From: Cryomorpha ignava
GTDB lineage: Bacteria; Bacteroidota; Bacteroidia; Flavobacteriales_D; Cryomorphaceae
NCBI RefSeq assembly: GCF_010686655.1
Contig: NZ_JAAGVY010000010.1
Coordinates: 1 to 64,000 of the forward strand
DNA length: 64,000 nt
Reading direction: 5' to 3'
The position numbers and the translations under genes were made by a program. Under the pieces are notes generated by a model that was given only the letters and a program-made list of their open reading frames with translations, had not been told where the DNA came from and did no database searches. Each line of letters begins with the position of its first letter. The stretch's first letter is position 1. This document shows, piece after piece, positions 45,385-56,264 of this stretch.

Positions 45385-46128
45385 ATGAAATCGTTGGAAG
45401 GAAAAATAGCCATAATTACAGGTGGCGCGAGCGGCATAGGTCGTGAAACTACACTCACATTTCTTAAAGAAGGAGCTACCGTAATTATTTGGGATATAAA
45501 TAAAACCAATGCGGAAGAAACACAGAAACTTACAGGAGAACATACATCGGTTGTGGAGTTTATGCACGTTGATACCCGCAACTACACCGAAGTAGAGAAT
45601 GCTACAAACAAAGTATTTGATAAGCACGGTAAGATTGATATTCTAATTAATAATGCGGGAATAACGTCCGACTCGACCCTCAAAAAGATGGAGCCGGAGC
45701 AATGGCAAAAAGTGATTGATGTAAATCTAACGGGCGTTTTTAATTGCGGAAAAGCGGTAAGCCTTAAAATGATGGAAAAGAATTCGGGTAAGATTATCAA
45801 TACATCGTCGGTTGTGGCGCACAATGGCAATTTTGGACAGAGTAACTACGTAGCTACAAAAAGCGGAGTAATTGGTCTTACAAAAGTCTGGGCGCGCGAA
45901 CTTGGTAAATACGGAATAAATGTAAATGCAGTAGCGCCTGGTTTTATAGAAACCGAAATGATTCTCTCCGTTCCTGAAAAGGTGCTTGAAGGATTGCGTG
46001 GTAAAACGCCGCTTGGGCGTCTTGGTAAACCGCAGGATATTGCAGATGCCTATGTTTTTCTTTCATCTGACAAATCAAATTACATCACTGGAACCGTCTT
46101 GAATGTAGATGGCGGAATGGTATTTTAA
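45385..46128 (+). CDS. FabG-like short-chain dehydrogenase/reductase
   Basis: 247 residues from the ATG at 45385; a TTG-started extension to 45361 is not needed. Classical SDR: cofactor motif TGGASGIGR (about 10-18), NNAG near residue 88, catalytic Ser in NTSSVV, and YVATK (Tyr and Lys) around 152-156. The C-terminal GRLGKPQDIADAYVFLSSD and GTVLNVDGG are typical of 3-oxoacyl-ACP/CoA reductases and 3-hydroxyacyl dehydrogenases. It interconverts a 3-oxo and 3-hydroxy group with NAD(P)H. It is the first gene of a same-strand series with a KAS III-like enzyme 12 bases downstream; the housekeeping fabG is probably elsewhere. Confidence 0.9.
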   Translation: MKSLEGKIAIITGGASGIGRETTLTFLKEGATVIIWDINKTNAEETQKLTGEHTSVVEFMHVDTRNYTEVENATNKVFDKHGKIDILINNAGITSDSTLKKMEPEQWQKVIDVNLTGVFNCGKAVSLKMMEKNSGKIINTSSVVAHNGNFGQSNYVATKSGVIGLTKVWARELGKYGINVNAVAPGFIETEMILSVPEKVLEGLRGKTPLGRLGKPQDIADAYVFLSSDKSNYITGTVLNVDGGMVF

Positions 46129-46140
46129 ACGACGCGTGAA

Positions 46141-47136
46141 ATGGAGAACAGAAATGCCATAATAGCAGGTACAGGAATGTACGCACCACCTAAAGTGGTA
46201 ACCAATAGCTATTTTAATGAATTGCTAGGCGAAGATGTTGACACTTGGTTGCGCAATAACGTTCAGATTTATGAACGTCGCTGGACCGGGCCAGATGAAT
46301 CTACCGCCGACCTTGCTGAAAAAGCTGGTTTAATGGCTCTAGAAAATGCAGGGGTTACCGCCGCAGATCTCGATCTCATTATTATATCTACAGATACTCC
46401 CGAGTTTGTATCGCCGTCAACTGCCAGTGTGGTACAAAACCGCTTAGGAGCTTTAAACGCAGGTACATTTGATATAAATGCTGCCTGTGCCGGATTTGTT
46501 ACAGCCCTTGATATGGCTGCAAAGTACATTAAAGTTGATTCGCAGTACAAACATATCTTGGTAATCGGGGCTTACAATATGTCAAAGTTCCTGAATTTAA
46601 AAGACAAGAAAACCGTTACACTTTTCGCAGATGGTGCTGGTGCAGCAGTTTTATCGGCCATTGAAACTGGCAACGGAGGCATGCTGGCTTCTGTGCTGGA
46701 ATCAAAAGGTGAGTACAACGAGTGGATGGGCATTTACGCTGGTGGCGCAAAAACCCCGGTTTCTGTAAAGGTTCTGGAAGAAAAAACCCAGTTGCTGCAG
46801 TTTGTCCATAAGTTCCCGAAAGAGCTAAACCCCGTTACCTGGTCGCGGATGATAAAAGAACTGTGCGAAAAAGCCGGAATCGATCCGGATGATATCGCCC
46901 GGTTTTATATTACTCAAATAAATATCAATGCTATTCACGAGACACTTGACATTCTCGGTGTTAAGCATGATAAAGCAGAATATGTAATGCACTACTATGG
47001 CTATACCGGTTCGGCCTGTATTCCTATGGCTTTGCATCAATCCGTAGAAAACAACGCTATTAATCGAGGTGACTATTTAATGTTCATTGGTTCGGGTGGA
47101 GGACTTGCATTTGCCGGAGCACTCTTTAAATATTGA
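46141..47136 (+). CDS. KAS III (FabH)-like thiolase-fold enzyme with altered catalytic triad
   Basis: 331 residues aligning over the whole length with FabH. The nucleophile Cys is conserved (C116 in NAACAGF), as are LFADGAGAAVL and the C-terminal GSGGGLAFAGAL. The His motif PHQAN of FabH reads ITQIN here (T258 in place of His), and the Asn motif GNTS reads GYTG (Y288 in place of Asn). Thus decarboxylative condensation by the usual triad is unlikely; transacylation, thioester cleavage or use of nearby H266 or H284 are possibilities. The gene is in a tight series with the SDR, hydrolase, symporter and CoA ligase. Confidence 0.88.
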   Translation: MENRNAIIAGTGMYAPPKVVTNSYFNELLGEDVDTWLRNNVQIYERRWTGPDESTADLAEKAGLMALENAGVTAADLDLIIISTDTPEFVSPSTASVVQNRLGALNAGTFDINAACAGFVTALDMAAKYIKVDSQYKHILVIGAYNMSKFLNLKDKKTVTLFADGAGAAVLSAIETGNGGMLASVLESKGEYNEWMGIYAGGAKTPVSVKVLEEKTQLLQFVHKFPKELNPVTWSRMIKELCEKAGIDPDDIARFYITQININAIHETLDILGVKHDKAEYVMHYYGYTGSACIPMALHQSVENNAINRGDYLMFIGSGGGLAFAGALFKY

Positions 47137-47142
47137 TTAATC

Positions 47143-48183
47143 ATGGTTGAAAGTTCCTACATATCGGCAAATGGAATTCGCCAACACCTGCTGGTAAACG
47201 GGAGCGGTGAAGACACGATTTTGTTTGTGCATGGAAATGGCTCAGATTCTGTTTTTTGGAAATCGCTGATGCGCAAACTTTCAAAGAAGTATAGAGCTCT
47301 TGCGCCCGATCTGCGCGGATTTGGAAAAACCGAAGCCATTCCCTGCGATGCTTCCAGAAGTTTTGGCTGCTTTGTAGATGATATCACAGACCTACTTGAT
47401 GAACTGGCAATTGAGAAATACCATTTCGTTGGTCATTCTCTTGGTGGCGGGGTGGGTTGGGAACTTTTGATAAAAGATCATGCCCGGATAAAATCGCTTA
47501 CTATGATTAATCCGGCTTCCCCATTTGGATTTGGCGGAAGCAAAGACGAAAAAGGCACACCAACTTTTGAAGATGGTGCCGGTAGTGGCGCGGGAGTGAT
47601 AAATCCCGACTTTGTAAAGCTACTTCAGGAAAAGGATAAATCAATGGACAATCCATCCAGCCCATTGAATATAATGAACAATTTTTACTGGGATCCTCCA
47701 TTCGTTCCAGAAGATATTGAAGAGCTTTTAGACGGACTTTTAAAAATGCAAACCGGAGATAAATTTTATCCTGGAGATTCGAAACCATCAGAGAACTTTC
47801 CATTTTCTGCACCGGGCAAATTTGGGCAAATTAATGCTGCTGCTCCGCTTACAAAATTCGATATACTGGCAAATCTTTGCTCCTTGAAAGTCAAGCCTCC
47901 AGTGCTTTGGTTACGGGGTGCAAAAGATAAAATTGTATCAGACAATTCGCTTTTTGACACAGCTGTGCACGGCGCTGCGGGTCACATAAAGGGGTGGCCC
48001 GGAGCCGAGATTTGTCCCCCGCAGCCCATGATTAAGCAAACCCGCTTTGCACTTGATGCTTATAAAAAGTCGGGTGGAGAATACAGCGAGCTCGTATTGG
48101 ACAACTGTGCTCACTCCCCTTATATAGAAGATTTCACAGCCTTTAATGCATTATTTATTCCCTGGTTAGAAGCGCATGAATAG
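47143..48183 (+). CDS. Alpha/beta hydrolase, cytoplasmic
   Basis: 346 residues, no signal peptide. HGNGSD forms the oxyanion region (about 30-35). The nucleophile elbow is GHSLGG (S99). The acid D262 is in WLRGAKDKI and the base H324 in NCAHSPY. A long insertion between strands 6 and 7 (about 125-235) forms the cap and contains an unusual NPASPFGFGGSKDEKGTP segment, conserved as far as I recall in a subfamily without known function. Ester, thioester or C-C bond hydrolysis is possible. The stop overlaps the symporter start by 8 bases. Confidence 0.88.
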   Translation: MVESSYISANGIRQHLLVNGSGEDTILFVHGNGSDSVFWKSLMRKLSKKYRALAPDLRGFGKTEAIPCDASRSFGCFVDDITDLLDELAIEKYHFVGHSLGGGVGWELLIKDHARIKSLTMINPASPFGFGGSKDEKGTPTFEDGAGSGAGVINPDFVKLLQEKDKSMDNPSSPLNIMNNFYWDPPFVPEDIEELLDGLLKMQTGDKFYPGDSKPSENFPFSAPGKFGQINAAAPLTKFDILANLCSLKVKPPVLWLRGAKDKIVSDNSLFDTAVHGAAGHIKGWPGAEICPPQPMIKQTRFALDAYKKSGGEYSELVLDNCAHSPYIEDFTAFNALFIPWLEAHE

Positions 48184-49696
48184 TTCAGAATACATATTGC
48201 CTACCATTGGAATGCTCGCTGTGCTTATGGCGGTAATCTTATATCTGGTTTTTCGGGGTGCCAAGAAAACAACCACCATGTCAGATTATGCTCTTGGCAG
48301 CTTTGCTTTTTCGCCTGTCGCCGTAGGCTTGGCACTCGCCGCCAGTATGACCAGCGCTGCGACTTTCATTATAAATCCGGGTTTAATAGGTCTTTACGGA
48401 ATTTCGGGGGTCATCTCTTACGCCATCGTTCTTCCAGTCGCCGCATTTGTTTCACTTGTAGTGCTCACCAAGCGATTTAGAGCGCATGGCACAAAGGTAA
48501 AGGCACTTACTATGGCGCAGTGGATGGGTAAGAGGTACGACAGCAAAGGCTATGCAACCTTCTTTTCTATTCTTTCAGTCTTACTGATTACTTTTATTGT
48601 ACTTATTGTGGTGGGATTGGCGCAACTTCTTTCACAATCTCTTCAAGTAGAGCCAATTATAGTAATGATTGGTATTGTAGCATTTGTATTTACCTACATG
48701 ATGTTTGGTGGTGCCAATTCGCTGGTTTACACCAATACTATACAAGCCGTGCTCATGCTTATCGTGGCTATTATCCTGCTCGCTTCGGGAAGAAATTTTT
48801 TCTCTGATGGTATCGCGGGGTTTATGGATCAGCTCGCCGCCATAAGCCCAAATTTGGTGAAGACCACAAATCCCGAAAGCTTTTTATTCAGAGACTATTT
48901 TGAAATTATTGTTTGCCAAATTGTGATTGGAATTGCGATAGTGTGCCAACCTCACATTATTACTAAATCTTTGATTCTGACTAAGGAATCTCAAGTAAAC
49001 AAGTTTCTTGCTGCCGGAATTGGTACGATGGTTATCTTCTTTCTGGTGGTGATTGTGGGGCTTTATGCTCGACTTACCTTTCCGGCTTTTACCCTTGATG
49101 GCACACCCATTAAGCCAGATCAGCTTGTGCCCTTGTATATCGTTGAACATTTTAAAGTAGGCACCGGACTAGTGGTAACCCTGGGCCTGATCGCAGCCGG
49201 TATAAGCACGCTGGAAGGTTTAATACAAAGCTTGTCGGTAACATTTACTTCAGATTTGCTTATCGCGAATAGCCCCAAACTTGAGGTTCTCTCTGACAGA
49301 AAAAAAATTAGATTAAACAGAATGGTTATTGTGGTGCTTGCGCTGATCACCATTGCCCTATCAACCAGGCAAATTCTGGAGCCGGAATTGAGCGTTGCCA
49401 TTTTCGCACAAAACGGTGTCTACGCTTTTTTTAGTGCTGCATTCTTTCCATTGGTTATGGGAATGTTTTCAAAAAAGACCAACGCCGGAGCGGCGATTGC
49501 GAGTTCGCTCACAGCTCTGGTTGTGCACTTTTCGGTGTATTATGGCAATATAGGAAGCTATATGCAAAACCCGGTAAATAATCCGGCAATAGCGGCTACT
49601 TTCGCTATCTTGTCTTCAGTAATGGTGGGACTGCTATGGCTGCGATTTTCAAATTCGAATGAAACATTTCTAAGAACAGAATCAATCAAGACATGA
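48176..49696 (+). CDS. Sodium:solute symporter family (SSS) transporter
   Basis: 506 residues with about 13 hydrophobic segments. SSS signatures: LAASMTSAATFIINPG in the first core helix region, and GLIAAGISTLEGLIQSLSVTFTSDLL in the sodium-binding helix region. SSS proteins import solutes such as monocarboxylates, amino acids or sugars with Na+. The substrate cannot be told from sequence; its neighbours (CoA ligase, SDR, thiolase-fold enzyme) favour an organic acid. It overlaps the hydrolase gene by 8 bases and the ligase gene by 4 bases (ATGA). Confidence 0.92.
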   Translation: MNSSEYILPTIGMLAVLMAVILYLVFRGAKKTTTMSDYALGSFAFSPVAVGLALAASMTSAATFIINPGLIGLYGISGVISYAIVLPVAAFVSLVVLTKRFRAHGTKVKALTMAQWMGKRYDSKGYATFFSILSVLLITFIVLIVVGLAQLLSQSLQVEPIIVMIGIVAFVFTYMMFGGANSLVYTNTIQAVLMLIVAIILLASGRNFFSDGIAGFMDQLAAISPNLVKTTNPESFLFRDYFEIIVCQIVIGIAIVCQPHIITKSLILTKESQVNKFLAAGIGTMVIFFLVVIVGLYARLTFPAFTLDGTPIKPDQLVPLYIVEHFKVGTGLVVTLGLIAAGISTLEGLIQSLSVTFTSDLLIANSPKLEVLSDRKKIRLNRMVIVVLALITIALSTRQILEPELSVAIFAQNGVYAFFSAAFFPLVMGMFSKKTNAGAAIASSLTALVVHFSVYYGNIGSYMQNPVNNPAIAATFAILSSVMVGLLWLRFSNSNETFLRTESIKT

Positions 49697-51192
49697 TGGC
49701 TTTTGACTGGATAGGAAAATGGGCTGAATATTCGCCTGAAAAAGTTGCAATACGCGATGTGAAGTTGGCTATTGACTTTACATACAAGGCACTCAATGAG
49801 CTGGCCCAAGATATTGCATTTAATCTTCATAAGAATTTCGGACTTGTAAAAGGCGATAGAATTGCGATTTTATCTGCATTCAATGCCGAATTTATAGCTC
49901 TTTTTAGCGCCGCCCAAAAAGCAGGGTATATTCTGGTGCCAATAAATACACACCTCACCGCACACGAAGTGGCGTACCAGATTGAAAATTCGCAAGCCAA
50001 ACTCATTATTTTTGAAGATGCCTTTGCCGGTAAGCTTAAAGACTTGAAACCGCCGAAGATTAACTGGAATGAAATATCTGGCAGTTCAAAGGAGACTTAT
50101 TCCAATTCAATTTCTGAAGACGACCCAATTTTTATTCTTTACACTTCGGGTACTACAGGAAGACCCAAAGGATGCATTTACACTCATAAAATGCTCTTTT
50201 GGAACAGTATAAATACAGAGCTACGTCTTGATATTACATCAAATGATATTACACTTAATTGCATGCCGTCCTTTCATACAGGTGGCTGGAATGTGTTAAT
50301 AACCCCATTTTTACATCATGGTGGTACAATTTGGCTGCTTAATGAGTTCGAACCACATTTGGTGTTGGAATGCCTTGAAAAAAGTAAATCAACACTTTTT
50401 ATGGCGGTTCCAACTATGCTCAAAATCATGTCAGATTCAAACGCATTTGCGGAAGCAGACCTCACCGCAATTCGCTACTTTATTGTGGGTGGCGAGGCAT
50501 TGCCTATTCCTGAAATTGAAACTTGGGATAAGAAAGGAATTCTAATCAGACAAGGATTCGGCCTTACAGAAGTTGGACCCAATGTTACTTCACTTCACCA
50601 ATCAGATACTACCCGAAAGCGTGGATCAATCGGATTTTTCAATTTTTACATTACCGGCAAGGTGGTAAACGAGGCCGGACAAGAATGCAAACCTGAAGAA
50701 GTTGGCGAATTGCTTATCAGCGGCCCGAATGTATCGCCGGGCTATTGGAACAACCCGGAAGAAACGACTAAAGCCTTTGCAGACGATTATTTTAAAACCG
50801 GCGACTTGGTAAAGCGCGATTCCGAAGGATATATCTATGTGGTAGGCCGCAAAAAGGAAATGTACATCAGCGGCGGCGAAAACGTGTACCCGCGTGAAGT
50901 TGAAAAAGTGCTGCAAACAAATCCGGCTATTTCAGAAGCGGTTGTAGTTGGAGTACCACACGAAAAGTGGGGAGAAACCGGAGCTGCATTCGTGATTAAA
51001 AAACCGGGAAGCGAAATTACAGAAGAGGAAGTTTTGAATTATTGCAAGGAATATCTCGCAAAATTTAAGCTCCCTAAACACATTGTTTTCCTGGATGAAT
51101 TTCCAAAAAACGCAACAGGGAAAATCGATAAAAAAGAAATTAAATCTAAATTAAATCAAACAATAAAAACAAGTAATCATGAAAACAAGTAA
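49693..51192 (+). CDS. AMP-forming acyl-CoA synthetase
   Basis: 499 residues, full-length ANL enzyme. P-loop-like YTSGTTGRPKG (150-160), GFGLTE (288-293), FKTGDLV (367-373), hinge region VGRKKEMYISGGENVYP (384-400) and the catalytic lysine K477 in NATGKID. It activates a carboxylic acid to the CoA thioester through an acyl-adenylate. The medium/long-chain or aromatic substrate is not decided by the visible motifs. ATG overlaps the symporter stop by four bases and its 3' end overlaps the Fn3 lipoprotein start by 14 bases. Import followed by CoA activation is the likely sequence of events. Confidence 0.93.
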   Translation: MMAFDWIGKWAEYSPEKVAIRDVKLAIDFTYKALNELAQDIAFNLHKNFGLVKGDRIAILSAFNAEFIALFSAAQKAGYILVPINTHLTAHEVAYQIENSQAKLIIFEDAFAGKLKDLKPPKINWNEISGSSKETYSNSISEDDPIFILYTSGTTGRPKGCIYTHKMLFWNSINTELRLDITSNDITLNCMPSFHTGGWNVLITPFLHHGGTIWLLNEFEPHLVLECLEKSKSTLFMAVPTMLKIMSDSNAFAEADLTAIRYFIVGGEALPIPEIETWDKKGILIRQGFGLTEVGPNVTSLHQSDTTRKRGSIGFFNFYITGKVVNEAGQECKPEEVGELLISGPNVSPGYWNNPEETTKAFADDYFKTGDLVKRDSEGYIYVVGRKKEMYISGGENVYPREVEKVLQTNPAISEAVVVGVPHEKWGETGAAFVIKKPGSEITEEEVLNYCKEYLAKFKLPKHIVFLDEFPKNATGKIDKKEIKSKLNQTIKTSNHENK

Positions 51193-51937
51193 ATTTTTCT
51201 TTTTAGGGCTTTTAAGCCTTGGTGTAGCATTTTCATCGTGTAGTAGCGATGATGAAGAGACCCCACCTGCAGGAACCTGTGCAACACCAACAGATTTGAT
51301 CATTGACAACACGACTGCCAGCTCGGTAACTCTTAGCTGGACGTCTACCGGAAGTGCATGGACCATTGAATACGGTGCAGCCGGCTTTACCCAAGGTTCT
51401 GGCACACAAGTAGAAGCTAACACGAAACCCTTTACAATCAATGGTTTAAATTCTAATACCGAGTACAACTTTTACGTACGTAATAATTGCACGGATGGAG
51501 CAAGTGGTTTCTCAAGTTCAGTTAGCATTTCTACACCAACCCCGCTAGTGGGCTCGTGGACTGCTTATGATGTTTCACCTCTTTTGGCTAGTTTCGGAAT
51601 TACGGGCATTACGGCCGAATTTAGCTCAAACAATGGCTATGTGGTAACTTCAGAAGCTGCCGGTGCCCAAACCGTACTTGAAGGTACATACACAATTGGT
51701 GACCCAAATTCTGAAGGAATTTATTCAATTGTACTAAATCAATCATCGCCAAATTCATTGACATCAGAGGGTATATTTAAAGTATATGCAGCTTCTCCAG
51801 ATTCAATGTGGTATGAAGTAGCACAGACTGACCCAGGCATTACAGGAGTTACTCCGCCTACTCAGGAAGCTGGTTTTGGATCCACTTCCGGTGGTGCTTT
51901 TGGAATGACGAATATCCAGAAATACAACAGACAATAA
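51179..51937 (+). CDS. Fibronectin type III lipoprotein
   Basis: 252 residues. Lipobox AFSSC (Cys21), then an acidic linker SSDDEE that may favour surface exposure in Bacteroidota. One Fn3 domain at about 35-120 (CATPTDLIIDNTTASSVTLSW, TNGLNSNTEYNFYVRN-type strands). The C-terminal 130 residues start LVGSWTAYDVS and look like a lipocalin-like barrel. It begins 14 bases inside the CoA ligase gene, so it belongs to the same transcript, and is followed by a strong terminator. A ligand-binding surface role is inferred. Confidence 0.87.
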   Translation: MKTSKFFFLGLLSLGVAFSSCSSDDEETPPAGTCATPTDLIIDNTTASSVTLSWTSTGSAWTIEYGAAGFTQGSGTQVEANTKPFTINGLNSNTEYNFYVRNNCTDGASGFSSSVSISTPTPLVGSWTAYDVSPLLASFGITGITAEFSSNNGYVVTSEAAGAQTVLEGTYTIGDPNSEGIYSIVLNQSSPNSLTSEGIFKVYAASPDSMWYEVAQTDPGITGVTPPTQEAGFGSTSGGAFGMTNIQKYNRQ

Positions 51938-52001: not shown

Positions 52002-53597
52002 ATGCGATTGAAATTCTACTTATTAACCCTTTTAGCTAGCTCTCCTTTCGCCCTCTTTTCGCAGTCTAATCCAGACTCTGCATTGGTAGCCATACCGTAT
52101 TATTTCAATCAGGAAATACCCGTAAAATCAGGAAAGGAGCTCACTTTTATCGCTTATTATTTCAATCAAGCCGTTACATCCAATTATTTTCCGACAAGTG
52201 ACTTTTTTCAGGGACAAGTTATTGGTCGTTTATTTGGTCGTAGCACGGCACGCACTTCAGATACCCTATCAACGAATTTTGTTGAACAGCGCCTCCTGCC
52301 TTTCTTTATTTACACACCTAAATTAATGGACGGAAAAGTTACCCTGCGCGCCTCATTTGAAATAGACTGGACATGGGGAGATGCCTCTTACGGCTCAGGC
52401 GGAAACCAGGGAGCAGGTTTTAATGGCGACTTTGTAAACATTCAAACACAAAATATTGAAGTTGAGATCGTTCCCGCAGCGGGCTACGCGATCAATTTTG
52501 GGCTAATGCGCGCTTTCGATTCGCCGTATCATCCTTATAGAACCACCTTTGACAAACTACAACTAAGCGGATACCGCCTTATGTACTGGGCCGGTGATGC
52601 TGCAGGAATAAGCGGACGTAAAGATTTTGATCGCGGAACTATCTCAGCGGGAATCTATAATCTTTGGGAAAACAAAATTGAACTTCAAGACGACGTATGG
52701 TTGTCAAAAATAATGGGAATGTATCGCTTTTCTCCCCAATTCAATTTGGGTGGATCGGTTTATTGGATGAACGATAATTCAACCGGAAAAGGCGGTACTT
52801 CGATTCTGGGCCAGGGACCAAAAAGCCTGCTTACAGAATATACGGGAGCATATCGTTTCGTATTTCCAGATAAGGAGTACAAAACCAATGTTGCCTGGCT
52901 GGGTACCTTCTTTGATTACAATCAAGACTATGCCTATAACAATCATCGCGTATCGGGATTCTTTAATTACAATACCGGAAATATTGAAGGTGAGAATGGT
53001 GAAATTGCCTCCATCAGCGGTTTTGGTACCAACCTGCGTTATGGATATCGCTACGGTAAAACCGAAGATGATGAAGTGGGATTTGATTATATATATACTA
53101 CCGGTGACGAAGATGGAATTACTGATGGCAATTATACTGGGGTAATTACCGGAAATACCTGGGGAGCACCCGGTAACCTACCTATCAGTACGGGAGCTAA
53201 TATTCTCTTCCCTTCCGGGAATGTGGTAAACCGCTATATGCCACTAGTTTCTGACATCTCTAACATGGGTTATGGGCTCAATGCAGCTACGGTGAGGGTT
53301 AAGAAAGCCATTGTACCACACAAATTTATCCTTTCGGCAAATGGTGGTTTTGCTTTCGCCAATGCCGAACCAAACCAGGGCGGATTGCACCTGGGAACAG
53401 AAGCAAACCTGGGATTAATCTGGAAAATAAAAACATTCATGGAGCTCGAGCTTCGCGGAGCCCACGTTTGGCTCGGCGATTTTTATGATGCGCCTTACGC
53501 AAATGGCGACCAGTTTGTAGATGCCGATAAAAGGCTTAATAAGCGACCCATTGATCCCTGGACCGCATTCTTAGCATTTAAATGGCTTATGTTTTAA
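52002..53597 (+). CDS. Outer-membrane beta-barrel protein, porin-like
   Basis: 531 residues with signal peptide (MRLKFYLLTLLASSPFALFSQ). The mature protein is a long series of amphipathic strands (RASFEIDWTWGDASYG, TISAGIYNLWE, TNLRYGYRYGK, LGLIWKIKTFMELELRGAHVWLGD) ending in aromatic FKWLMF, as in barrel proteins recognised by the Bam machinery. The strand pattern and length recall the alginate-export/OprD-like porin size class, but I cannot name a family. It lies between the Fn3 lipoprotein and the exported hydrolase, so it probably admits the substrate of the pathway. Confidence 0.82.
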   Translation: MRLKFYLLTLLASSPFALFSQSNPDSALVAIPYYFNQEIPVKSGKELTFIAYYFNQAVTSNYFPTSDFFQGQVIGRLFGRSTARTSDTLSTNFVEQRLLPFFIYTPKLMDGKVTLRASFEIDWTWGDASYGSGGNQGAGFNGDFVNIQTQNIEVEIVPAAGYAINFGLMRAFDSPYHPYRTTFDKLQLSGYRLMYWAGDAAGISGRKDFDRGTISAGIYNLWENKIELQDDVWLSKIMGMYRFSPQFNLGGSVYWMNDNSTGKGGTSILGQGPKSLLTEYTGAYRFVFPDKEYKTNVAWLGTFFDYNQDYAYNNHRVSGFFNYNTGNIEGENGEIASISGFGTNLRYGYRYGKTEDDEVGFDYIYTTGDEDGITDGNYTGVITGNTWGAPGNLPISTGANILFPSGNVVNRYMPLVSDISNMGYGLNAATVRVKKAIVPHKFILSANGGFAFANAEPNQGGLHLGTEANLGLIWKIKTFMELELRGAHVWLGDFYDAPYANGDQFVDADKRLNKRPIDPWTAFLAFKWLMF

Positions 53598-53606
53598 ATT
53601 CACACT

Positions 53607-54572
53607 ATGAAAAAGATTGGACTAATACTCGTAATAGCATTTCTTTCACATGGCTTTGTACACGCCCAGGGAATGTATCAGGATTTGGAAAAAGTGAGCA
53701 GCTATGAAGAAATCACTTATCCCTTTCCGGTAAAAAAAATAACCGTTTCAAATGGAATTGAAATCGCCTACATGGATGAAGGCAACGGAACAGAAACAAT
53801 TATCTTTGTTCACGGCCTGGGAAGCTACGCTCCAGCCTGGAAGAAAACGGTAGCCGGTCTGAGCAAAAACTATCGCTGTATTGCTATTGATTTACCCGGT
53901 TATGGCAAATCTTCGAAGGGAAATTTCTCTGGCAGCATGACGTTTTATGCAGCTGTGATAAGTGAATTCGCCGAAGCGCTCAATTTAGATAATATCGTCC
54001 TTGCTGGCCACTCAATGGGCGGACAAATCTCTATTATAGCTGCGCTAAAATATCCCGAGTTGGTATCAAAACTCGTCTTGATCGCTCCGGCAGGGATAGA
54101 AACTTTCAGCATAGGCGAAAAAGATTGGTTTAGAAATGCCCTTACGGCAAAAGGCGTAATGCTGAGCAGCCTTCAGGACATTGAAACAAACTTTGGCAGC
54201 AACTTCTATAAAATGCCAAAAGACGCTTTTTTTATGGTTAGAGACCGATACGCCATGACCGGCGCGGGAGAAGAATTTCAATGGTATTGCAATATTATTC
54301 CCAAATGTGTGCAGGGAATGGTCAATCAGCCGGTAATTCGCGATTTGCCAAAAATCATACAACCCACACTTGTCGTTTTTGGCGATTCTGATGCATTGAT
54401 TCCAAATAGATATCTTCACGGAGGTCAGACCGCAAAAATTGCTGAAAAAGCGGGAGAGCTTATTCCCCACAGCAAAGTTGAAGTTATTAAAAAAGCGGGG
54501 CACTTTGTGATGTACGAAAAAGCTGAGGAGGTGAATCAGATGATTTCTGGATTTTTGAATTCGGATTTTTGA
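53607..54572 (+). CDS. Exported alpha/beta hydrolase
   Basis: 321 residues with signal peptide (MKKIGLILVIAFLSHGFVHAQ), so periplasmic or outer-membrane associated. VHGLGSYAPAW near 68-78, nucleophile S136 in AGHSMGG, acid D260 or D262 in VFGDSDALIP, base H299 in KAGHFV. Resembles the serine esterase/lipase branch. It starts 9 bases after the barrel gene. The last residues (FLNSDF) and the stop TGA fall within GAATTCGGATTTTTGATTTC, at the edge of the intergenic TTTCAG repeat, so its C-terminus may be repeat-derived. It likely releases the transported acid from an ester in the periplasm. Confidence 0.9.
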   Translation: MKKIGLILVIAFLSHGFVHAQGMYQDLEKVSSYEEITYPFPVKKITVSNGIEIAYMDEGNGTETIIFVHGLGSYAPAWKKTVAGLSKNYRCIAIDLPGYGKSSKGNFSGSMTFYAAVISEFAEALNLDNIVLAGHSMGGQISIIAALKYPELVSKLVLIAPAGIETFSIGEKDWFRNALTAKGVMLSSLQDIETNFGSNFYKMPKDAFFMVRDRYAMTGAGEEFQWYCNIIPKCVQGMVNQPVIRDLPKIIQPTLVVFGDSDALIPNRYLHGGQTAKIAEKAGELIPHSKVEVIKKAGHFVMYEKAEEVNQMISGFLNSDF

Positions 54573-54896: not shown

Positions 54897-56264
54897 GTGA
54901 AAAAGCCCCTCCAGAAATTTGACTCTTTTGCTCTATCGCTCTTCCCTACCGAAGTAGAACACGTTAGAAATAACAATGAGATTTCAGATCCAGAGCTGAT
55001 TTCTATTCTGGATAAGCTTCACATACTCGTCAATTTTCCCGAAAGACATATTGTATTTAATCCTGAAATTGACCCGAGAAAATACTCGCGGATAATTAGT
55101 TACTTCAATACCAAACTCGATAAAATTGATGTAGATGCCTATTATGCATGGATCACGAAAATTGATTATCAAATCACTACAGACGCTATTCCTCCTGAAG
55201 AGCAGCAACGCATACTGCGCGAAATAGAAAGCTTTGAGCCCGGGTGGTTTCACGCAGCGAGCTTTTACCGTACAATGCAAAACTATAAGCGGTATTTGCT
55301 TATCCGATACCGCGAAAAAGAGTATCTCATCATTAAAAACTTCCTTGAGCAATATGAAATATATTATGCTGAAAATGAAGAAATTGAAAAGCATATTGAC
55401 GATTTAACATCTAAATTCGTGTTGCCTGAATCACTTCATTCAAATTCTGTAGAGACCGCCGACATTGATTGGCTTCTTAATACATTTAACAATGATCAAA
55501 TAAGCAAGAAAAATCGCTACCAGGCTATTGTAGCCTACAATCTCTTTCACATTATTTCACGGCAAATTACGCCTATGCACGCTCCCATGGCGGCTTTGGA
55601 AAAAAGTCTATTGAAAGGCGATTTTTATTCAAGAAGAATCTTGGCTAACTATTACGCCAACAAATTGCTCTTGCGAAACTATGAAGGCGACCATGAGCGC
55701 GCAGCGTTCTGCGGACTTCAATCTATTAAGCAATACACCGAAGATTATTTGTACTACTTGAATAATTACTGCAGCGTATTGATGAATTTAAATAAATTTG
55801 ATGAAGTACTGTACCGATCAAGAGATGCAATGCACGTGTACAAATCTTCGCAAGATAGCGGACGCAGACTTATATTTATGGCAAATTATTGCCGCTGCCT
55901 GAACAATTATCTGGAGTACAAAAAAAGTATCCGTCTGGCCAAAAGATTGATTGATGAACTTGGAAATTCCATTTTCCAGTTCAAGTGGCATTACCTCTTT
56001 CGGGTTTACTTTTCGGCTTTAATGCAAGATGACAGACACGCCGACTTGCTGCGAATGGAGCGGAAACACAAACTTAATGACCGGGAAAATCAATTGGAAT
56101 TTGCTCCATATCTGCAATTATATACCCTGGCTGCAGGGTTTTTGGAAATGAAACTGGCTTCGGCGCATTATAAATCAAAACTGGAAAAAATAAGATCAAT
56201 TATAAAACCCGAGCAGAAAGCAGAAATGCAATCACTTTTAACGGAAGTTGAGAAATTGAATTAA
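54897..56264 (+). CDS. Large helical protein of unknown function
   Basis: 455 residues with a GTG start at 54897. No signal peptide; the whole protein is predicted by eye to be helical and rich in Tyr, Leu, Lys and Arg. The C-terminal 250 residues have TPR-like spacing (ERAAFCGLQSIKQYTEDYLYYLNNYCSVLMNLNKFDEVLYRSRDA and KKSIRLAKRLIDELG), suggesting a helical-repeat scaffold. I do not recognise the family. Its start lies 30 bases after the family C hairpin; the 3' end faces the convergent gene at 56368. Confidence 0.75.
   Translation: MKKPLQKFDSFALSLFPTEVEHVRNNNEISDPELISILDKLHILVNFPERHIVFNPEIDPRKYSRIISYFNTKLDKIDVDAYYAWITKIDYQITTDAIPPEEQQRILREIESFEPGWFHAASFYRTMQNYKRYLLIRYREKEYLIIKNFLEQYEIYYAENEEIEKHIDDLTSKFVLPESLHSNSVETADIDWLLNTFNNDQISKKNRYQAIVAYNLFHIISRQITPMHAPMAALEKSLLKGDFYSRRILANYYANKLLLRNYEGDHERAAFCGLQSIKQYTEDYLYYLNNYCSVLMNLNKFDEVLYRSRDAMHVYKSSQDSGRRLIFMANYCRCLNNYLEYKKSIRLAKRLIDELGNSIFQFKWHYLFRVYFSALMQDDRHADLLRMERKHKLNDRENQLEFAPYLQLYTLAAGFLEMKLASAHYKSKLEKIRSIIKPEQKAEMQSLLTEVEKLN

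Follow-up and report, generated by a model that had tools for sequence, protein, structure and literature searches.

FabH enzymes carry a Cys-His-Asn triad whose His-Asn pair serves malonyl decarboxylation, and their R36 and R249 contact CoA or ACP. KAS III relatives with an altered triad are already known, and the characterised ones compared here retain at least one active-site His. The His is dispensable for formation of the acyl-enzyme and is needed later (PMC4807248). In HMG-CoA synthase, the residues central to condensation are a Cys and a Glu, which in the archaeal enzyme are Cys114 and Glu82 (PMC6392133). Ltp2 and Sal provide a precedent for Tyr as an acid/base in C-C cleavage by enzymes of this fold (PMC12329534). 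The window, by which we mean the whole 64,000-nucleotide stretch of Cryomorpha ignava DNA analysed here (contig NZ_JAAGVY010000010.1), contains an open reading frame with an ATG start for a further altered-triad protein, belonging to a clade that we term TY. Literature searches turned up nothing relevant to this clade or its operon. The gene and its active-site codons are listed below, with conservation counted over 68 distinct Bacteroidota sequences that share 46-79% identity with the query.

46141..47136, + strand: KAS III-fold enzyme of the TY clade, 331 aa (Pfam ACP_syn_III and ACP_syn_III_C; FabH fold; clade support 100/98)
46393..46395, + strand: codon of Asp85, the proposed acid/base, which falls on the catalytic Glu of HMG-CoA synthase in the alignment (Asp in 68/68; 0/26 FabH-type sequences)
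46486..46488, + strand: codon of Cys116, nucleophile (68/68; aligned with the FabH Cys)
46912..46914, + strand: codon of Thr258, in place of the FabH His (67 Thr and 1 Ser of 68; His in 26/26 FabH-type sequences)
47002..47004, + strand: codon of Tyr288, in place of the FabH Asn (Tyr in 68/68; Asn in 26/26 FabH-type sequences)

In a full-length alignment with solved FabH proteins, C116 (NAACAGF) fell on the FabH Cys, T258 (ITQIN) on the His of PHQAN and Y288 (GYTG) on the Asn of GNTS. The sequence-only reading, which had described a retained Cys with the His and Asn replaced, was thus borne out by both this alignment and the conservation among the 68 sequences. By contrast, Cys-His-Asn is present in each of the 41 other KAS III-superfamily sequences sampled from 17 Bacteroidota genomes, a set made up of FabH and several divergent paralogues. 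The replacement of His and Asn in the TY clade is no chance substitution, and gene decay is disfavoured by the invariant residues, the open frames and an operon that is packed in many genomes. Retention of the Cys only should allow acylation and not the usual condensation. A His and an Asn brought to the canonical positions from elsewhere in the chain, which the same reading had named beforehand as grounds for giving it up, did not appear in the sequence alignments. Its suggestion that H266 or H284 substitutes for the His did not hold, with position 266 being Trp in 37, Arg in 16 and His in 7 of the 68 sequences, and position 284 being Asp in 28, His in 22 and Ser in 10. No His is conserved across the 68 sequences, the most His-rich column having His in 46.

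The polar positions specific to the TY clade and at least 97% conserved include D85, S91, N113, T121, Y145, Y199, N230, W234, T258, Y288 and S318. Among them, D85 aligns with the Glu of HMG-CoA synthase from a related genome, and the acid-to-Cys spacing is 31 in the TY protein and 32 in the archaeal HMG-CoA synthase. The equivalents of FabH R36 and R249 are Arg in 26/26 FabH-type sequences and mostly Asn in the TY clade. Because these Arg residues have been lost, we infer that the TY enzyme does not use ACP and would take CoA as its carrier instead. Asp85 and the Arg losses had gone unremarked in the sequence-only reading, as had the full transport and hydrolysis operon, the PRK06840 sister family and the thiolase and DUF35 neighbours described below.

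The AlphaFold model of the protein (mean pLDDT 82.5, pTM 0.85; minimum at residues 193-203) superposes on FabH structures from one end to the other; the best match has a VIA Z of 39.2, with an rmsd of 2.1 A over 297 residues. The TY protein thus has the KAS III fold and the nucleophilic Cys of FabH, and Thr/Ser and Tyr stand in place of the catalytic His and Asn in all 68 sequences. It scores 256 bits against 249 for the broad NCBIfam model PRK09352, which along with the FabH fold would suit a FabH of unusual type still able to initiate fatty-acid chains. However, it falls below the cut-off of the curated fabH model TIGR00747 (228.8 versus 292.1 bits), both catalytic residues are replaced and the R249-equivalent Arg is lost, and the genome already has its own Cys-His-Asn FabH (G000:C28; 29% identity to the TY protein), leaving an unusual FabH with only a very slim chance of being correct. 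Decarboxylative chain initiation by the TY enzyme is improbable on these alignments, in agreement with the earlier expectation that normal initiation would fail with the His-Asn pair gone from the whole clade. The protein is also far from the HMG-CoA synthase models (PRK04262, 49.3 versus 244 bits; TIGR01835, 29.3 versus 360 bits) and is not a member of PRK06840 (NF005308; 147.9 versus 315 bits).

A scan of a genome collection returned 13 orthologues with 62-72% identity, all from Bacteroidota. Matches at E <= 1e-75 occur in 57 of 395 sampled Bacteroidota genomes, and since library models call the TY enzyme only a beta-ketoacyl-ACP synthase, misassignment to fatty-acid synthesis may be repeated across many genomes. 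The distribution is patchy, because only 5 of 60 near relatives carry a TY enzyme, all five in the window's own family. Occurrence beyond Bacteroidota rests on one Chloroflexota plasmid, whose KAS III protein (locus L109) shares 39% identity and the same four residues, D85, C116, T258 and Y288. In the phylogenetic tree, the TY clade is monophyletic, set off by a branch supported at 100/98, and the PRK06840 family is its sister, the pair having the same 100/98 support. The branch leading to the HMG-CoA synthase row is very long, and the tree is therefore uninformative on how that row relates to the TY clade.

The genes that accompany the TY gene in the window, with their frequency over 69 loci, are as follows; the counts depend on greedy picking of open reading frames, and the loci include some that share a genome or belong to near-identical ones.

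45385..46128, + strand: FabG-like SDR, NAD(H)-type by Asp37 (Pfam/NCBIfam; 12 bp upstream of the KAS gene; upstream neighbour in 54/69 loci)
47143..48183, + strand: alpha/beta hydrolase 1, cytoplasmic (Pfam; a minority, 14/69 loci)
48176..49696, + strand: sodium:solute symporter-family transporter (Pfam SSF; 57/69 loci)
49693..51192, + strand: AMP-forming acyl-CoA ligase (Pfam; best NCBIfam model PRK06839, 459 bits, under the cut-off; 67/69 loci)
51179..51937, + strand: FN3-containing predicted lipoprotein (Pfam fn3; conserved Cys21; 38/69 loci)
52002..53597, + strand: predicted outer-membrane beta-barrel protein without a Pfam family (beta-rich low-confidence model, pLDDT 45; 38/69 loci)
53607..54572, + strand: alpha/beta hydrolase 2, predicted secreted (Pfam; signal-peptide-like N-terminus; conserved GxSMGG Ser136 and His299; 61/69 loci)

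From the SDR gene through the KAS, hydrolase 1, symporter, ligase and lipoprotein genes, the successive gaps are 12, 6, -8, -4 and -14 bp, followed by 64 bp to the barrel gene and 9 bp to the secreted hydrolase gene. An SDR gene lies near the KAS gene in 64 of the 69 loci, directly upstream and co-directional in the 54 noted above, and its product has a conserved Asp37 after beta-2, as is usual for NAD(H) use. A MarR/GbsR-like regulator is encoded nearby in 42 loci, and TonB-dependent receptors or MFS transporters are present in other loci. The operon thus appears, from the predicted functions of its genes, to import and break down a carboxylic acid. The linkage to a CoA ligase and hydrolases that had been noticed earlier is real and conserved. 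A 455-aa protein without a Pfam family (54897-56264) is encoded close to the operon, or to parts of it, in 15 of 69 loci, and its gene often runs in the opposite orientation.

One locus has a MaoC-type hydratase gene between the ligase and lipoprotein genes (L081:13169-13597), a possible sign that an enoyl- or 3-hydroxyacyl-CoA is formed on the way, and open reading frames of similar size occupy that position in L085 and L089. The SDR, the ligase, this hydratase and weak depolymerase-like hits of the hydrolases would fit catabolism of PHB or 3-hydroxybutyrate. That candidate was kept as a substrate lead only, the depolymerase-like hits of both hydrolases being weak and generic, and no PHA synthase was found in the Cryomorpha ignava genome. 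The MarR-like regulator, esterase and transporters would also fit a candidate pathway of hydroxycinnamate type. The operon offers a practical route to the substrate, and its context is insufficient to fix the reaction of the TY enzyme.

Because both other catalytic residues are replaced throughout the clade and the operon is of the uptake and breakdown type, the TY enzyme probably performs a different, unstudied reaction. Considering these results, we tentatively propose, from sequence comparison and gene context, that it may be a CoA-specific enzyme of thiolase/KAS III fold that makes or breaks a C-C bond adjacent to a thioester in the catabolism of an imported carboxylic acid. Claisen- or aldol-type chemistry on CoA thioesters is favoured because an acid occupies the place of the HMG-CoA synthase Glu and a Tyr has replaced the Asn. 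Breaking of the bond is more likely than making it, the breakdown direction being favoured by the operon content. In the following scenario, the secreted hydrolase would free the acid from an ester or lactone, the barrel protein and symporter would bring it into the cell, the ligase would convert it to a CoA thioester, and the NAD-type SDR would oxidise a 3-hydroxyacyl-CoA. The KAS-like enzyme would then carry the acyl group on Cys116 as an intermediate; Asp85 would serve as acid/base in the manner of the Glu in HMG-CoA synthase, with Tyr288 and Thr258 possibly standing in for the Asn and His hydrogen bonds to an enolate or alkoxide. We infer this role of Asp85, the C-C chemistry and its direction from the invariance of D85, C116 and Y288 and near-invariance of T258, the alignment of D85, the loss of the FabH-type Arg and an operon whose closely spaced genes cover uptake, hydrolysis, CoA activation and oxidation. 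The precedent of Ltp2 and Sal applies to the fold; their Tyr residues lie at other positions, in SCP2-type proteins, unlike Tyr288. Against C-C chemistry, HMG-CoA synthase uses a His that the TY enzyme lacks. The simplest version of the scenario would be direct thiolysis of a 3-oxoacyl-CoA, which would be redundant because three ordinary thiolases are encoded elsewhere in the Cryomorpha ignava genome and some TY operons also include a thiolase.

Cys116 might instead accept an acyl group from CoA and transfer it to an acceptor with a hydroxyl, amine or thiol, as in CerJ and ChlB3, or act in reverse through thiolysis of an ester by CoA. Such pure acyl transfer would agree with the dispensability of His for acyl-enzyme formation, the existence of KAS III acyltransferases (PMC9573744) and the ester hydrolases linked to the TY gene. 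However, in CerJ and ChlB3 the Asn is replaced by a His that is paired with an Asp, whereas the TY enzyme has Tyr288 and no conserved His, and an acyltransferase leaves unexplained why an acid is invariant where HMG-CoA synthase has its Glu; we regard this alternative as somewhat unlikely. The acyl-transfer role put forward in the sequence-only reading thus stands in part, being supported by the linked ligase and hydrolases, while Asp85, the operon as a whole, PRK06840 and the thiolase and DUF35 neighbours point at least equally to C-C chemistry.

PRK06840 was found in 6 of 395 sampled Bacteroidota genomes, in each of which a TY enzyme is encoded in the same gene cluster (6/6; p 7e-6), so that within this sample the family occurs only alongside the TY operon, in agreement with the proposed C-C chemistry. 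This second KAS III-like protein (L076:13316-14338, with equivalents in L067, L075, L077, L078 and L101) carries a Glu at position 85 and is likewise without the canonical Asn, for which it has a His. The His position of the PRK06840 motif shifts by one between alignments and is uncertain. On Halobaculum plasmids, the genes for PRK06840-type proteins (L107:9001-10035 and L108:8950-10017) immediately follow those of an ABC transporter of the branched-chain amino acid type, which suggests that the haloarchaeal role is also tied to uptake.

The earliest-branching TY members are those of L101 and the Chloroflexota plasmid L109, and both clusters include an SCP2-type thiolase and a DUF35 protein (60% and 38% identity between the two loci, respectively), also in keeping with C-C chemistry. 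In L109, a CoA-transferase and an ABC transporter replace the ligase and symporter. A zinc-ribbon pattern recovered no DUF35 protein in the loci, but the DUF35 protein of L101 is itself without the motif, so this result does not speak for the absence of such partners elsewhere. A DUF5640-like small protein (L109:10352-10660) may resemble the C-terminal part of the lipoprotein encoded at 51179-51937, the match not being significant (E 0.10). The DUF35 and thiolase neighbours at these two loci, and the loss of catalysis in the KAS III-fold subunits PhlA and PqsB, would accord with a non-catalytic or regulatory scaffold that supports a partner enzyme of the operon. This explanation is quite unlikely, in that the TY nucleophile and acid are invariant, whereas PhlA lost both, and a thiolase-fold partner is absent from most TY operons.

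Extending the proposed C-C chemistry to the clade, it is possible, though doubtful, that Asp85-Cys116-Thr258-Tyr288 marks a His-less thiolase-fold class acting on C-C bonds of CoA thioesters in an unrecognised catabolic pathway across Bacteroidota and at least one Chloroflexota, with PRK06840 as its sister and occasional partner. With no active-site His, yet a fixed nucleophile and an HMG-CoA synthase-like acid, the clade is a testable case of a fold changing its chemistry.

In comparison with known systems, the TY enzyme shares with FabH the fold, length, nucleophilic Cys, and Gln and second Asn of PHQAN, and differs in His to Thr, Asn to Tyr, the gain of Asp85, the lost R36 and R249 equivalents and the uptake and breakdown operon. 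PRK06840 is alike in the acid at 85, the Cys and the operons, and differs in having His where the TY enzyme has Tyr288. HMG-CoA synthase shares the Cys and acid pair at similar spacing, whereas the TY enzyme lacks a catalytic His, has Asp for Glu and lies far under the family cut-offs; the archaeal thiolase/HMGS/DUF35 complex has the same gene set as the neighbours of the two deep TY members. CerJ, ChlB3, OleA and PqsC were compared through published residues, outside the tree. CerJ and ChlB3 resemble the TY enzyme in KAS III fold, Cys and altered triad, and differ at Tyr288 (published triad, PMC9573744). PqsC shares the fold and the loss of Asn, which in that protein is replaced by Val, but its His is retained (His269). 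The Ole cluster resembles the TY operon in its mix of a thiolase-fold enzyme, a hydrolase, an AMP-ligase-family enzyme and an SDR, but an Ole-type assignment was rejected because the SDR is FabG-like, the ligase is CoA-ligase-like and the OleA Glu117-Pro inter-subunit position corresponds to Ser91-Pro92, as placed through the FabH Phe-Pro alignment without OleA itself; transporters and a secreted hydrolase further set the TY operon apart.
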